A DNA stretch of 64,000 bases from Candidatus Saccharimonadota bacterium (lineage in GTDB: Bacteria; Patescibacteriota; Saccharimonadia; Saccharimonadales; Saccharimonadaceae), in assembly GCA_017460225.1 (NCBI GenBank), contig JAFUBM010000013.1, forward strand, positions 1 through 64,000. The letters are read 5' to 3'. The position numbers and the translations under genes were made by a program. Position 1 is the first letter of the stretch, and each line of letters begins with the position of its first letter. Below, piece after piece: positions 29,160 to 53,402 of this stretch. The notes under the pieces are model-generated. The model was not told the origin of the DNA. It made no database searches and was given only the letters and a program-made list of their open reading frames with translations.

Positions 29160-31415
29160 CTAGCGGAGAACACAGCGGACGGTGCCGCCGTAGGGTTTTT
29201 CGAGGTCTTGATTGGAATTTTTTTGCCCGGCTTTAGCGCTGGATGCGTTGGCGGCTTGTTTAGTCCAGTTACGCGGGTTAGTTGTAGAGATACTTCCAGT
29301 AGCAGTGTAGCCTATAGACAATCTAGATAACGGAATGTCAAGAGATTTAGTGTAGTTGTCGTGGTTGGCGTCATACGCAGTAGCAAGTATATAGTACCAG
29401 TCGGACGGGAGCGTCCAGCGGCGCGGGCAGATGGTGTCGCTGGCATTGCCGGAAGTTTTGGTATAGGTGCCAGATTCGGCCGTGGCGGCATACCAGTTGT
29501 AGAAATGGAAGTCGCCGTAATCGTAGCTCCGGGCGATTTCAACATTGGCATTGTTGGTCCAGGAAGTAAGCTCGTTGCCTTCTGTATCAAACTTAGATCG
29601 CCAAGAATAGAAAGTGCCGGTGGGCTGGAACTGGACGGTCTGAGTAGAGCCGACCTGGATGCGATTTTGAGCAAAGACTGGAAAGTAATCTTCTAGCGTA
29701 ACCGTGGGGTCATACTCCTGGGCGATGGCGAGCGCCTTGGCGGCGGGATCCCAAGAAGTTTTGGAATAAAGATCCGTGTTAGTGTTGTTGAGATTGTCCG
29801 TGCCAGCAAAGGCGGAAAGGTCGAGATCTAAATCTTGCGCCATGTAGCAGTTTTTGGTGCTGCTGTTAGTGTAGATACGCCGGATGAGATAAGGATGCTC
29901 ATCACGTTTATCTTTAAGTTCAAAGGAGGCGATACCAACGAGGTCGGTGCCAACGGGGACTTCGGAGAGAGCGGTCGTGCCGGTGGGGTCGTAAATCTGG
30001 GCAGAGGCGCCGGAAGTTTTGCCCCAAAGATTGGTGTTGGCGCAGATGGCAGTAGTAACATCTTGCATATAAGTCACGTAGTTCTTTAAGGCATTGCCGT
30101 CGGAGGCGTCTTTGTAGCGAGACTGGAGACCAACATAGGCAAAAGCCTCCCTAGTGCCATCGGAAACTTTGGAGACGTAGTCGATGCCGTATTTTTCGAT
30201 ATGAATCCAAAAGTCATAGCGGCCGGCCATGCCCTCCGCCGTGGAGGCGTCGGCATAGGAATCGGCGATTTCTGAGATAGTGGGAATAGTGCAAGTGAGG
30301 GCGGCTTTGGTATCGTCGATCGAGAAATTAGTAATAGCACAGATATTGGTTTGTTCTGCGAGCTCGGACGGGTCGTAGTCGGCGGCGACCATGTCGGCGT
30401 GTTTGACGAGATAGACCGTAACGTCGCTGGATTGAATCAAGTTGGAGTCAACGCTTTCGGCGACGTCGAAAGCTAGGGTTTCGGTAATACCGCTGGTGCC
30501 GTAGGTGTTGCTGCGGGAAAGATTGGTAGAGACTGCATCGAGAGACTGGGAGCTGGCGAGGACGGTGTAGACAACCTGGTTGGAATAGACGCCAGCGAGA
30601 ACATCCGTGCCGACCATCACGGCATAGAAAATGTCGAATGTGTCGAGGTTAGTGTCGCCGTGTTCGCCGCCAAAGCCATGGAGGTTGGCGGTTTCCGCCT
30701 TCCAGATTTGGAGCGGATTGTTAAGATCCGGGACAGCAGACCAGGTAGTGGACTTGTAGACGTTTTCGCCGGAAGAGAAAGTGATTTCGTTGTCGAGATT
30801 ACTAGAATAGAGCGAGGCGGCGGCGTAGGTCGGGGCGTCGGGGAGACCGGTGCTTTCGACGCCAGGAACGGCAAAGCCCCAAGAACTCTTGGAGAAGACA
30901 GCGGGCGAAGAGAAGGAGGAGGAGACGGGCTCGATGCCAGTCGTGGAGTCGCCCGAGAGGTTGAGCGAGTTGTTATCGGTAACGGTAGAGAGGTAGACGG
31001 TGTAGTATTTGCCGGTAGATTCAATCCCGAGAGTTTTCCGGAGGATCTTTAGCGTGCCGACGTTGCCGGTTGCGGCAGAGGCGGTGCCGGATTCTTTGCT
31101 GGTGGGGACAATCGTGCCAAATTCGATGTTGCCGTGGTCGGAGTCGGAGATACTGCCGCCGGCTTGGGTGGCGGCGACGTCTGGGTCGAACGTGAGGCTG
31201 ATAGCCGTCCAGTCGACATCAAAATTGACGTCGACGGCGGCGTTGGCCTCGGCGGAAAGATATGGTACGAACAGAAAAGAGAGGAGGAAGACCGCTAACC
31301 CAGCGAGTGAACAATAGAAGGACTTCCGGACAGCCTGACGGCCCAGAGCGCGATAGCCAATATAATCACCGTAGCTCCTTTCCCGGACGGTTAAAGATTT
31401 TTGCTGGTCTTGCAT
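29160..31415 (-). CDS. Exported FISUMP-domain surface protein (paralogue 1)
   Basis: A 751-aa protein. After a short cytoplasmic N-terminus (MQDQQKSLTVRE), residues about 32-55 form a signal/membrane helix (SFYCSLAGLAVFLLSFLFVP, then SAEANA). The long exported part is Thr/Ser/Asn-rich and beta-structured, with an EFGTIVPTS motif near residue 100. The last 300 residues contain a FISUMP domain: KRDEHPYLIRRIYT, NCYMAQDLDLDL, FHFYNWYAAT, CPRRWTLPSDW and a final VRCVLR. It is a paralogue of the protein at 50322-53402, with the first 13 codons and the leader RNA element conserved. A role in attachment is inferred from similar proteins in Saccharibacteria. Confidence 0.87.
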   Translation of the reverse strand: MQDQQKSLTVRERSYGDYIGYRALGRQAVRKSFYCSLAGLAVFLLSFLFVPYLSAEANAAVDVNFDVDWTAISLTFDPDVAATQAGGSISDSDHGNIEFGTIVPTSKESGTASAATGNVGTLKILRKTLGIESTGKYYTVYLSTVTDNNSLNLSGDSTTGIEPVSSSFSSPAVFSKSSWGFAVPGVESTGLPDAPTYAAASLYSSNLDNEITFSSGENVYKSTTWSAVPDLNNPLQIWKAETANLHGFGGEHGDTNLDTFDIFYAVMVGTDVLAGVYSNQVVYTVLASSQSLDAVSTNLSRSNTYGTSGITETLAFDVAESVDSNLIQSSDVTVYLVKHADMVAADYDPSELAEQTNICAITNFSIDDTKAALTCTIPTISEIADSYADASTAEGMAGRYDFWIHIEKYGIDYVSKVSDGTREAFAYVGLQSRYKDASDGNALKNYVTYMQDVTTAICANTNLWGKTSGASAQIYDPTGTTALSEVPVGTDLVGIASFELKDKRDEHPYLIRRIYTNSSTKNCYMAQDLDLDLSAFAGTDNLNNTNTDLYSKTSWDPAAKALAIAQEYDPTVTLEDYFPVFAQNRIQVGSTQTVQFQPTGTFYSWRSKFDTEGNELTSWTNNANVEIARSYDYGDFHFYNWYAATAESGTYTKTSGNASDTICPRRWTLPSDWYYILATAYDANHDNYTKSLDIPLSRLSIGYTATGSISTTNPRNWTKQAANASSAKAGQKNSNQDLEKPYGGTVRCVLR

Positions 31416-31416
31416 A

Positions 31417-31663
31417 GTTCCTACCTCTCTTTAGATTGTTGCGCCCTCAGAGGTGGATTTTTGCGTCATATTACAAAAATGGCACCACGAGGGTGCATTA
31501 GAAAACTTAACGCCAAACTGCTTGCGCAATTAGTGCTAAATTGACTTCCTCAATGGTGCCAATTTCAAGCGCTGATTACGCAACGTTTGGAAAATATCCT
31601 ACGATAAATGTGCAGCTTTCTTGATTTATAGTACCAAGAAATGGCGTAAAAATTTTCTAATGC
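31417..31663 (-). promoter_or_regulatory. Long structured 5' leader of FISUMP gene 1
   Basis: From the predicted start near 31663 to the ATG is about 250 nt without an ORF. The leader contains the 27-nt element at 31473-31499, whose GCACC/GGTGC hairpin followed by ATTTTTGT looks like a terminator. An upstream TGGCACCA (31561-31554) is exactly complementary to TGGTGCCA (31487-31480) within that hairpin and could form a competing anti-terminator. It ends with TAAAGAGAGGTAGGAAC, identical in FISUMP gene 2. The remaining 31664-31783 holds only the promoter. Confidence 0.6.
31473..31499 (-). repeat. 27-nt leader element, copy 1
   Basis: Identical over 27 nt to 53475-53501. It folds as GCACC-CTCGT-GGTGC, followed by CATTTTTG on the minus strand. 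Confidence 0.85.
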
Positions 31664-31669
31664 AGCTTT

Positions 31670-31699
31670 ATTTTAACACGAACCTAGAGCGCTTTGCAA
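31670..31699 (-). promoter_or_regulatory. Promoter of FISUMP gene 1
   Basis: TTGCAA (31699-31694), 18-nt spacer, TAAAAT (31675-31670) on the minus strand, about 255 nt upstream of the start codon. Confidence 0.6.
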
Positions 31700-50321: not shown

Positions 50322-53300
50322 CTAGCGGGCGACACAGCGGATGGTGGTGCCGAGGCCTCTCGATGTGTTAATATAGTTATTCCCGTTGGTATTGTAGTTT
50401 AAAAACCAGGAGTGGGCACCTAATCTATTAGAGGTTGTGTTGATAATATAGGCATCGTAGAGCCTTACTTTCCCGGAAGTTGCGTAGTATTCAGACGGAT
50501 CATACCAGCCCGCCAAAGGCGTGGAGACTGGCGCTAGGACTACGGTGGTCGCGTTTGTCTTGCTCCCAGCGAGAGAATCTAATAAATTATTGTAGGAATA
50601 GCTGCTTCCATCTGGTAGTTGCCAACCCTTTGGACAAATGCTTTCGTCCGTTACAGTAACGGTAGTTAGTCCAGTTCCTGCCGTTGCGGCATACCAGTTG
50701 TAGTAAGACCCCGCTAGGTGCCAAGATGCTAGCGGCTGATCGTTGGCGTCCGCACAAACAGGAAATTCTAGAGTCTCACCGTTCAATTTTAGGGTGCCGC
50801 TGACTACTGTGGCGGTAGAACAGCTACTAGCCGGCGTGCGGATCTGTTGCATTGTTTCCCCTTCGGGGATGTAGCTTTCGGCCGCGCCATCAATGTTTGA
50901 CCCAGCGTAGTTATTAGCAGGGCCCCAAGAGTAGGCGTGCGCGCCGTCGCTACCCATATTTAGCCAACGATAGTCGGCCGCCGAACTTGGATGCCTGATA
51001 TACGAGCTAGCTTGCGAGTAATTGCTGACGGCGCCAACTCGATTTGAATTTACGTTGGCCGGAACGGGATTCCCGGAACTGGTGCTAGTTACTGTGGGCA
51101 AAGAGGCTTCATACTCGCTGTTTTGGAGGCTCCCAACTTGAGAAATTAGTGGCGCTCCGCTAGTCTCTATGCGGCAATAGCGATTGGAAGTGCCTAGGTC
51201 GAACAAATTGCCGTCGCCGTTGACATACATCAGACAGCTGCTACTGCCCACTTGTTGCGCCTGGTAAAAGTTGCTGGAGTCGAGGTCTAATTTGTAGAGT
51301 TTGAAATCATAGGAAGCGTATGTGCTTGTAGAATTAAGATACGCTTGCTGATTTGAAGCCGTAAGATTGTTTAATGCGTCTGCCGTCCAAAACTTTGTTT
51401 CGCTCTTAGCGAAGCATGGATATTGTTGAGTTCCGCCCGTGCAGGCCGCCACCACGCTCTCGACCCAGCCGCCAGCTCCGTCGTTGGCGGAAGCGTCCCA
51501 AGTGCCTTCGTAGAGCGTAACTGTTTCTACGCCGTGCGTATCCTGCCAATAGCTGGAAGTGGAGCCTTTTTTGGCTTCGTCGGATGTTTGCGATGGGGTT
51601 AAGGTCCAGTCCTCCTCGATATCCGTGTCGGCGGCCGACAGGGTTAGACCGGAATAGAGTTGCAAATCGAGATTTTGCGCCATCCAGCAATTTCCGTCTG
51701 CCAACCGGCGGACAAGATAAGGTTTGCCGTCACGAGTGTCGGTGAGCGAGAAGCTACCGACGCCTTCGGCGATGCTGGCCGCGGCGGCGGTAGAATCGTG
51801 GAGTTGCGAATAATCGATGCCGGAGAGTTGATCCCCGTCTGGGTCGAGAATCCGGGTCGCGTCGCCCCATTTGTTGTTGAAGCGGTTGGTATTAGCACAG
51901 ATGCCGCTTGTCATCTCCTGCATCTTGGTGACGATGGGGGTGTTGGCGGTATAACGGACGTCGGGATAGGTGGCGCCAGCAGCGGCGTTGGCATAGAGCG
52001 ATTGGAGCCCGGCGTAAATAAAGGCACCGACTAAGGAGTTGCCCGAACCGTATTGGTAGACCGAGACGTAGTTGTAGTTATAACCGGCGATCGTGAGGAG
52101 GATGTCGTAAGTGCCAACGCCAGTGCCGTCTTCGACAGAACCTTCCGGGACAGTACACTGAATGGAAGTGGTCTTACCGGCAGAGACTTCGGAAGCAGAG
52201 CCAGTGAGTAAGTCTAGGGAGCCGGCAACAACAGGACAATCGAGATTAGTACTGTTAGCCTTGATGGCGGCGAGGTTGATGTCATTCTCATCGGCGTAGT
52301 CGTTAGCCATCATAACATCATGGGGGACGAGAGTAATCGTGATGTCATCTTCTTCTAAGTAGGCGGTGGAGTTGGTGAGGTCGAAGTTAATAGTGAGAAT
52401 ATCCCCGGCGCCACCGTAGGCGAGATCGCGCTGGAGATTGGAGGAAGCTTTGTCGATAGCGGCGGCGTTGGCGACGGCGGTATAGACGACGTTGTTCTCG
52501 TACGTCCCGGCCAAAGTATTCGTGTCGACAACTACGGCATAATAAACATCAAACGTATCATCTTCAAAGCCGGTAGAGTTAGTGGTTTCTTGTTTCCAGA
52601 TTTGGACTGGAGAGTCGGCGGTGGGGACAGCCGCCCAAAGAGAATTAGTATAAGTGTCGGAAGCGCCTGTGGCAGTGGAGGAGACGTTGATTTCTGAATC
52701 AGTGTAGTAGGAAGTGAGGAAGTTGCCAGCGGAAGAGATGTTGCCGGTAGTCTTGGCGTTGGGTACAGCAAAGCCCCAAGACGGGCCGGAGAGAGTGGTT
52801 GGACTATCAAAGGTGCCGGCGACGGCAGGGAGGTTGATACTAGAGTCGGTGGCGACGGTACTGCCGGCACTGGTGGAGGTAACGAGGTTTAAGCCGTTGT
52901 TATTGGTGGCGTTGTTGATGTCTTTTTTGGACATCGAGAGGTAGACCGTGTAGTATTTGCCGGTGGTGGAGACGCCGATGGTTTTCTTGAGAACGCGGAG
53001 GGTGCCGTAGGAGCCGGAGGCAGTATCCCGCGCGGTAGGGTTCAAAGTACCAAACTCGACGTTGCCGTGGCCGGCGTCGCCAATCTGCGAGCCGGAGGCG
53101 CCGGAGGTTGCTTCGTATTCTTCCGTGGCGTCGACATCTGGGTCGAGTGCCAAAGAGATGGTGCCCCAAGCGGTCTTGGCGCGGGCAGTCTCAGCTTGAG
53201 CTTCGGCTACTACATAAGGAGCGACAATAAAAGAGAGGAGGAAGAGAGCGAGACCAGCGAGTGAACAATAGAAGGACTTCCGGGCGCTACGCTGAAGCAT

Positions 53301-53402
53301 AGCATACGGTGCGGATTTGCAATAGTCTGTTCCAATATAATCACCAAAGTGATGACTATCCGCTCCTTGCCGGACGTTTAACGATTTTGGCTGGTCTTGC
53401 AT
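50322..53402 (-). CDS. Exported FISUMP-domain surface protein (paralogue 2)
   Basis: A 1026-aa paralogue of the protein at 29160-31415. The N-terminus MQDQPKSLNVRQ is followed by a longer cytoplasmic part and the same signal/membrane helix (SFYCSLAGLALFLLSFIVAP). The exported N-terminal half keeps VEFGTLNPTARD and TGKYYTVYLS. The C-terminal FISUMP domain (TDTRDGKPYLVRRLADGNCW, MAQNLDLQL, YYNWYAATA, CPKGWQLPDG, TIRCVAR) is enlarged by about 200 residues of additional insertions. It has no paired partner gene. The shared leader and N-terminus suggest duplication; the variable exported region would suit differing ligands. Confidence 0.87.
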   Translation of the reverse strand: MQDQPKSLNVRQGADSHHFGDYIGTDYCKSAPYAMLQRSARKSFYCSLAGLALFLLSFIVAPYVVAEAQAETARAKTAWGTISLALDPDVDATEEYEATSGASGSQIGDAGHGNVEFGTLNPTARDTASGSYGTLRVLKKTIGVSTTGKYYTVYLSMSKKDINNATNNNGLNLVTSTSAGSTVATDSSINLPAVAGTFDSPTTLSGPSWGFAVPNAKTTGNISSAGNFLTSYYTDSEINVSSTATGASDTYTNSLWAAVPTADSPVQIWKQETTNSTGFEDDTFDVYYAVVVDTNTLAGTYENNVVYTAVANAAAIDKASSNLQRDLAYGGAGDILTINFDLTNSTAYLEEDDITITLVPHDVMMANDYADENDINLAAIKANSTNLDCPVVAGSLDLLTGSASEVSAGKTTSIQCTVPEGSVEDGTGVGTYDILLTIAGYNYNYVSVYQYGSGNSLVGAFIYAGLQSLYANAAAGATYPDVRYTANTPIVTKMQEMTSGICANTNRFNNKWGDATRILDPDGDQLSGIDYSQLHDSTAAAASIAEGVGSFSLTDTRDGKPYLVRRLADGNCWMAQNLDLQLYSGLTLSAADTDIEEDWTLTPSQTSDEAKKGSTSSYWQDTHGVETVTLYEGTWDASANDGAGGWVESVVAACTGGTQQYPCFAKSETKFWTADALNNLTASNQQAYLNSTSTYASYDFKLYKLDLDSSNFYQAQQVGSSSCLMYVNGDGNLFDLGTSNRYCRIETSGAPLISQVGSLQNSEYEASLPTVTSTSSGNPVPANVNSNRVGAVSNYSQASSYIRHPSSAADYRWLNMGSDGAHAYSWGPANNYAGSNIDGAAESYIPEGETMQQIRTPASSCSTATVVSGTLKLNGETLEFPVCADANDQPLASWHLAGSYYNWYAATAGTGLTTVTVTDESICPKGWQLPDGSSYSYNNLLDSLAGSKTNATTVVLAPVSTPLAGWYDPSEYYATSGKVRLYDAYIINTTSNRLGAHSWFLNYNTNGNNYINTSRGLGTTIRCVAR

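Follow-up and report, generated by a model that had tools for sequence, protein, structure and literature searches.

Bacterial transcription-attenuating leaders and riboswitches are structured 5′ leaders that begin at the transcription start site, place mutually exclusive pairings beside a U-run and precede one gene family. T-box leaders (RF00230) are recognized by an invariant UGGN that pairs with the tRNA NCCA end. Some surface-antigen families have 5′ control elements in many copies, an example being the repeats upstream of the vlhA genes of Mycoplasma. To our knowledge, gene control in the Patescibacteria is almost unknown. A 2024 review described the mechanisms behind Patescibacteria cell differentiation as completely unknown (PMC11665869). 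Here, we describe a leader that shares the layout of the attenuators, resembles T-box leaders in part and, like vlhA-type elements, stands as the same 5′ element before dozens of paralogous surface genes with near-identical start regions.

We analyzed a 64,000-nt stretch of DNA from a Candidatus Saccharimonadota bacterium (the window), in which an attenuator-like leader had been predicted. The leader runs from 31664 to 31416 on the minus strand, directly upstream of a gene for a 751-amino-acid secreted FISUMP-like protein (29160 to 31415, minus strand), and is one copy of a recurrent structured RNA family without an Rfam match. It folds far better than chance, both over 31416 to 31663 (z = −7.1) and in its P1-P3 part alone (z = −8.2). 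In agreement with the original prediction, in which no known riboswitch core was recognized, a search of the window with the Rfam covariance models gave no family above the gathering threshold. An open-access literature search on these leaders found nothing.

All of the leader's features lie on the minus strand. A candidate promoter (31699 to 31670) comprises a −35 element, TTGCAA (31699 to 31694), 18 nt of spacer and an extended −10 element, TGTTAAAAT, with TAAAAT at 31675 to 31670. Five nucleotides past this −10 box, at the inferred transcription start, begins P1, a 15-bp helix between 31664 to 31650 and 31508 to 31494; the −10 hexamer ends exactly 5 nt before P1 in 120 of 140 copies. P1 encloses an inner domain, P2/P3 (31649 to 31509), whose P3 hairpin bears element A near its apex (31561 to 31548, TGGCACCATTGAGG; family form, TGGCRYCRTRAGG), preceded by an A-rich stretch. 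Directly 3′ of P1 lies element T (31492 to 31480, CCTCGTGGTGCCA; family form, CCTYGYGGTGCCA), which can form 13 bp with A (helix P4) and is followed by the U-run TTTTT (31479 to 31475), each of whose five positions is T in 136 to 140 of the 140 copies. T also contributes to a compact local hairpin, GCACC-CTCGT-GGTGC (31496 to 31482, −6.9 kcal/mol), which shares the final GCA of the P1 3′ strand and is separated from the U-run by CA. A third element, T′ (31463 to 31440, CAAAAATCCACCTCTGAGGGCGCA), complementary to T plus the U-run (z = 4.6), sits between the U-run and a putative ribosome-binding site (31430 to 31420, AGAGAGGTAGG) that recurs in the own-genome copies. Across the family, the alignments show a predicted RNA that starts with P1 at the start site, encloses the A hairpin and runs directly into T and the U-run, and in which T has three possible partners: A (13 bp), the CACC of the local hairpin (4 to 5 bp) and the downstream T′.

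The compact hairpin and U-rich run of the original prediction are both present, and its upstream complement, TGGCACCA (31561 to 31554), is perfectly complementary to TGGTGCCA (31487 to 31480), although the complementarity extends past these 8 nt to TGGCACCATTGAGG and CCTCGTGGTGCCA. Helix P1, element T′ and the recurrence of the element had been missed.

A DNA search of the source genome found the element 8 times, and relatives added further copies, giving about 140 distinct copies overall. With a covariance model built on the 3′ core, 44 of the 147 same-genus genomes were found to carry it, at 1 to 43 copies per genome. A covariance-model search of 294 genomes of the order found it in none of the other 142 genera, under the stricter filters that apply to searches of more than 40 genomes and that could miss weak distant relatives. 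When 84,980 species were scanned with a strict pattern, 87 stretches matched, of which 85 were labeled Candidatus Saccharibacteria, mostly from animal gut. A phage origin was rejected, as the strict T pattern matched none of 2.9 million viral contigs. The element was also seen in rabbit-gut MAGs labeled Oscillospiraceae and Bacilli (L142 and L183), the L142 copy preceding a FISUMP-like gene; these contigs are probably misbinned Saccharibacteria, with transfer as the alternative. Many of the leaders that lie close to contig ends (e.g., G012:C11, G015:C33, and G080:C1:26) coincide with assembly breaks, as would be expected if gene starts formed long, near-identical repeats.

The element precedes secreted genes in nearly all copies. 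An N-terminal hydrophobic segment was found in 106 of 120 downstream open reading frames, most of the others being cut by contig ends, and among 40 complete downstream products, 33 matched TIGR02145 (FISUMP) and 24 matched PF09603. The 751-amino-acid protein is divergent and itself falls below the Pfam and NCBIfam thresholds, aligning at 39% identity to FISUMP-matching members. Of 40 genomes of the genus, 39 have FISUMP genes, and many of these genomes lack the element. We saw neither a diverged nor an intact leader before FISUMP genes in 20 regions fetched from element-free genomes, where the gene starts that were identified, several true starts not being among them, mostly had short 5′ regions. 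Since FISUMP genes are widespread and many genomes that have them lack the leader, the element is presumably an optional control layer on these genes. A decayed T/T′ remnant precedes a FISUMP gene in a species otherwise without the element (L210; G003:C2:86700-89300), and at G000:C14:95012-101176 an open frame of 2,787 amino acids matched FISUMP domains at several places. The window itself holds a second T element (53497 to 53476, minus strand), upstream of a 1,026-amino-acid FISUMP gene (50322 to 53402); it lacks A and P1, and a sequence that would complete its P1 was found nowhere else in the window.

Both strands of P1 and the A:T helix covary. In 62 composite rows that join pieces of each leader, in which pair counts are valid and spacings are not, 320 cells had changed on both sides, compared with 82 in column shuffles, and the covariation exceeded that of 500 of 500 column shuffles. 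Overall, 97.4% of cells were paired, against 78.3% in column shuffles and 31 to 50% in slid controls. P1 showed two-sided change in 13 of 15 pairs and had 97.6% of its cells paired, a figure biased upward because the 140 copies were accepted only with a P1 of at least 12/15; the swap control is free of that bias, and in a 23-copy set, P1 arms fitted their own partner at 14.0/15 but those of other copies at only 8.9. The A:T helix had 97.0% of its cells paired and two-sided change in 5 pairs, its variable positions covarying as, for example, ATGAGG/CCTCGT, GTAAGG/CCTTGC, and CTAGG/CCTAG. Positions 5 and 6 of A vary only between A and G and between C and T, opposite an invariant U and G, with pairing kept. 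Within single genomes, too, the cis pairing of A with T is better than that obtained when copies are shuffled (P = 0.005). The mutually exclusive folds and the U-run of the original prediction are real, recurrent and conserved. P1 and P3 lengths were dropped as geometric proof because their negative correlation stems from the junction being called inconsistently by nested folding. A trans-encoded partner was likewise rejected; A-like and T-like patterns in the source genome fall on leaders, save for A-pattern matches at control level.

The leader is probably a transcription attenuator of some polarity, which is the most economical reading because an invariant U-run lies flush with T, a helix is anchored at the start site and the pairings compete. 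When polymerase reaches the U-run, the partner chosen by T would decide between release and read-through. We slightly prefer the A:T helix, which has a predicted energy of −26.8 kcal/mol and ends flush with the U-run, as the releasing structure. The CACC/GGTG hairpin would then be the competitor that lets polymerase pass, aided by P1-P3, which would keep A confined to a loop, and after passage T′ may capture T and lock the read-through form. To this statement as a whole, a cis-acting attenuation leader of paralogous secreted FISUMP genes with A:T as the releasing structure, we would tentatively give a probability of about 0.38; the opposite polarity is nearly as likely. Against this statement, a helix with a 45- to 60-nt loop is an unusual terminator, and T′ lies past the decision point, so that termination alone does not explain it. 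Moreover, A:T and P1-P3 would jointly form a pseudoknot, and nested folding favors P1-P3 together with the local hairpin.

The original prediction had cast the compact hairpin and U-run as the terminator and A:T as the antiterminator. Its geometry is classical, and the hairpin belongs to the nested minimum-energy fold. The 4-bp CACC/GGTG core is kept in essentially all of the 140 copies, and the A of CACC is invariant even though its P1 partner is missing in 27 of 136 copies, from which it follows that the compact hairpin probably matters too. As a terminator, however, it would be weak, with 4 to 5 bp and −4 to −8 kcal/mol (median, −7.5 kcal/mol), and it stands 2 to 3 nt from the U-run. Only its outer G-C pair varies, and 19 of 140 copies have lost that pair, whereas P1 is kept through compensation; its own pairs show no covariation over the 140 copies, whereas the A:T stem covaries. 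The supposed antiterminator, A:T, is itself flush with the U-run. Exclusive pairings beside a U-run stand, but we consider the hairpin's role as terminator somewhat unlikely.

In most copies, T′ matches the reverse complement of T plus the U-run, with a fit that ranges from imperfect to nearly perfect. For 66% of copies, this complementarity lies above the 99th percentile of shuffles, and across copies it is cis specific (P = 0.0003); in the window, the predicted T-T′ hairpin reaches −25.2 kcal/mol (z = −4.8). The conservation of T′ in most copies, between the U-run and the ribosome-binding site, would suit a leader that acts posttranscriptionally, on translation or mRNA stability, through a T-T′ hairpin formed close to the ribosome-binding site and through closure of the 5′ end in P1. 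The very 5′ end is indeed paired in P1, and CCACCTC in this genome's T′ is partly complementary to GAGGTAGG. Such action would nevertheless leave the invariant U-run flush with T unexplained, and T′ is absent or weak in about one-third of copies; we regard it as unlikely. Four leaders (L091, L102, L110, and L113) carry about 150 nt of additional sequence between T′ and the gene; this insert includes a palindrome such as GTGATGTGATAAGAAATTTTATCACATCAC and looks like a small dispersed repeat.

The leader might instead be a T-box or another tRNA- or metabolite-binding riboswitch, of a known class that annotation failed to recognize. Element A resembles the T-box motif UGGNACCGCG and contains UGGCACCG, and the layout of A:T followed by a U-run is that of a T-box terminator. 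Against this, seven copies gave no T-box match at E values up to 5, the stems are hypervariable and a conserved specifier loop is absent. The T-box assignment was rejected on the UGGN position and the lack of an RF00230 model match, and a known class of any such kind is highly improbable. Attenuation through a leader peptide would also account for the U-run geometry; short open reading frames with a ribosome-binding site, however, occurred in 26 of 140 leaders, against 22 ± 5 in shuffles. With no enrichment over shuffles, a leader peptide was rejected and retains hardly any probability.

Paralogous leaders of two genomes (L085 to L118; G080 and G088) were compared over the leaders and the first 75 nt of the genes. 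Identity was 95% in the start regions, 91% in the 3′ parts of the leaders and 100% in T, whereas it was 65% in the stems (against 53% when stems were shuffled) and 62% in the promoters. The block from T into the gene thus appears homogenized while the self-complementary stems stay locus specific, a pattern that suggests gene conversion, or recombination, bounded at T. The stems are not conserved; what is conserved is A, T and a U-rich loop motif, [AC]TTTT[AT], found in 91 of 140 copies compared with about 20 in shuffles and lying at about +33, in the P2 region, at a near-fixed distance from the start site. Apart from these three, we saw no conserved ligand pocket, and the original suggestion of a new sensed signal is neither strengthened nor weakened. 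More speculatively, and with rather low probability, terminated leaders or read-through T′ strands could cross-pair with the A or T of paralogous leaders, coordinating or limiting simultaneous FISUMP expression, or else A and the U-rich loop could sense an undescribed ligand.

The several mutually exclusive pairings of T, in leaders that recur before many related genes, suggest a shared RNA-based on/off control for a whole FISUMP surface-gene family in a gut Saccharibacterium. By inference, the element would control up to about 40 surface-protein genes in some species, in genomes of less than 1 Mb and in organisms whose habitat is the surface of other bacteria. Because A and T compensate for each other, paired mutations could test the mechanism directly, and the FISUMP family with and without the leader offers a natural comparison across species. 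A cross-pairing network, if true, would give an episymbiont an RNA-based equivalent of antigenic or host-range variation.

The leader is an RNA family not previously described, of a general kind already known. It differs from known attenuators and riboswitches in having no known ligand domain, in hypervariable stems among which only the pairing strands are conserved, in its up to about 40 copies in a genome of less than 1 Mb and in a T′ that competes downstream of the U-run. Like T-box leaders, it has an A-type motif, the complement of that motif and then a U-run, but 29 of 136 copies begin the motif with C (CGGC) rather than U (UGGC), contrary to the invariant UGGN of that class, and there is no conserved specifier stem. 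What is unusual is the copy number, the dedication to one surface-protein family and the third competing strand. Unlike vlhA-type elements, it carries a covarying RNA structure in place of a slippage repeat or an invertible promoter.
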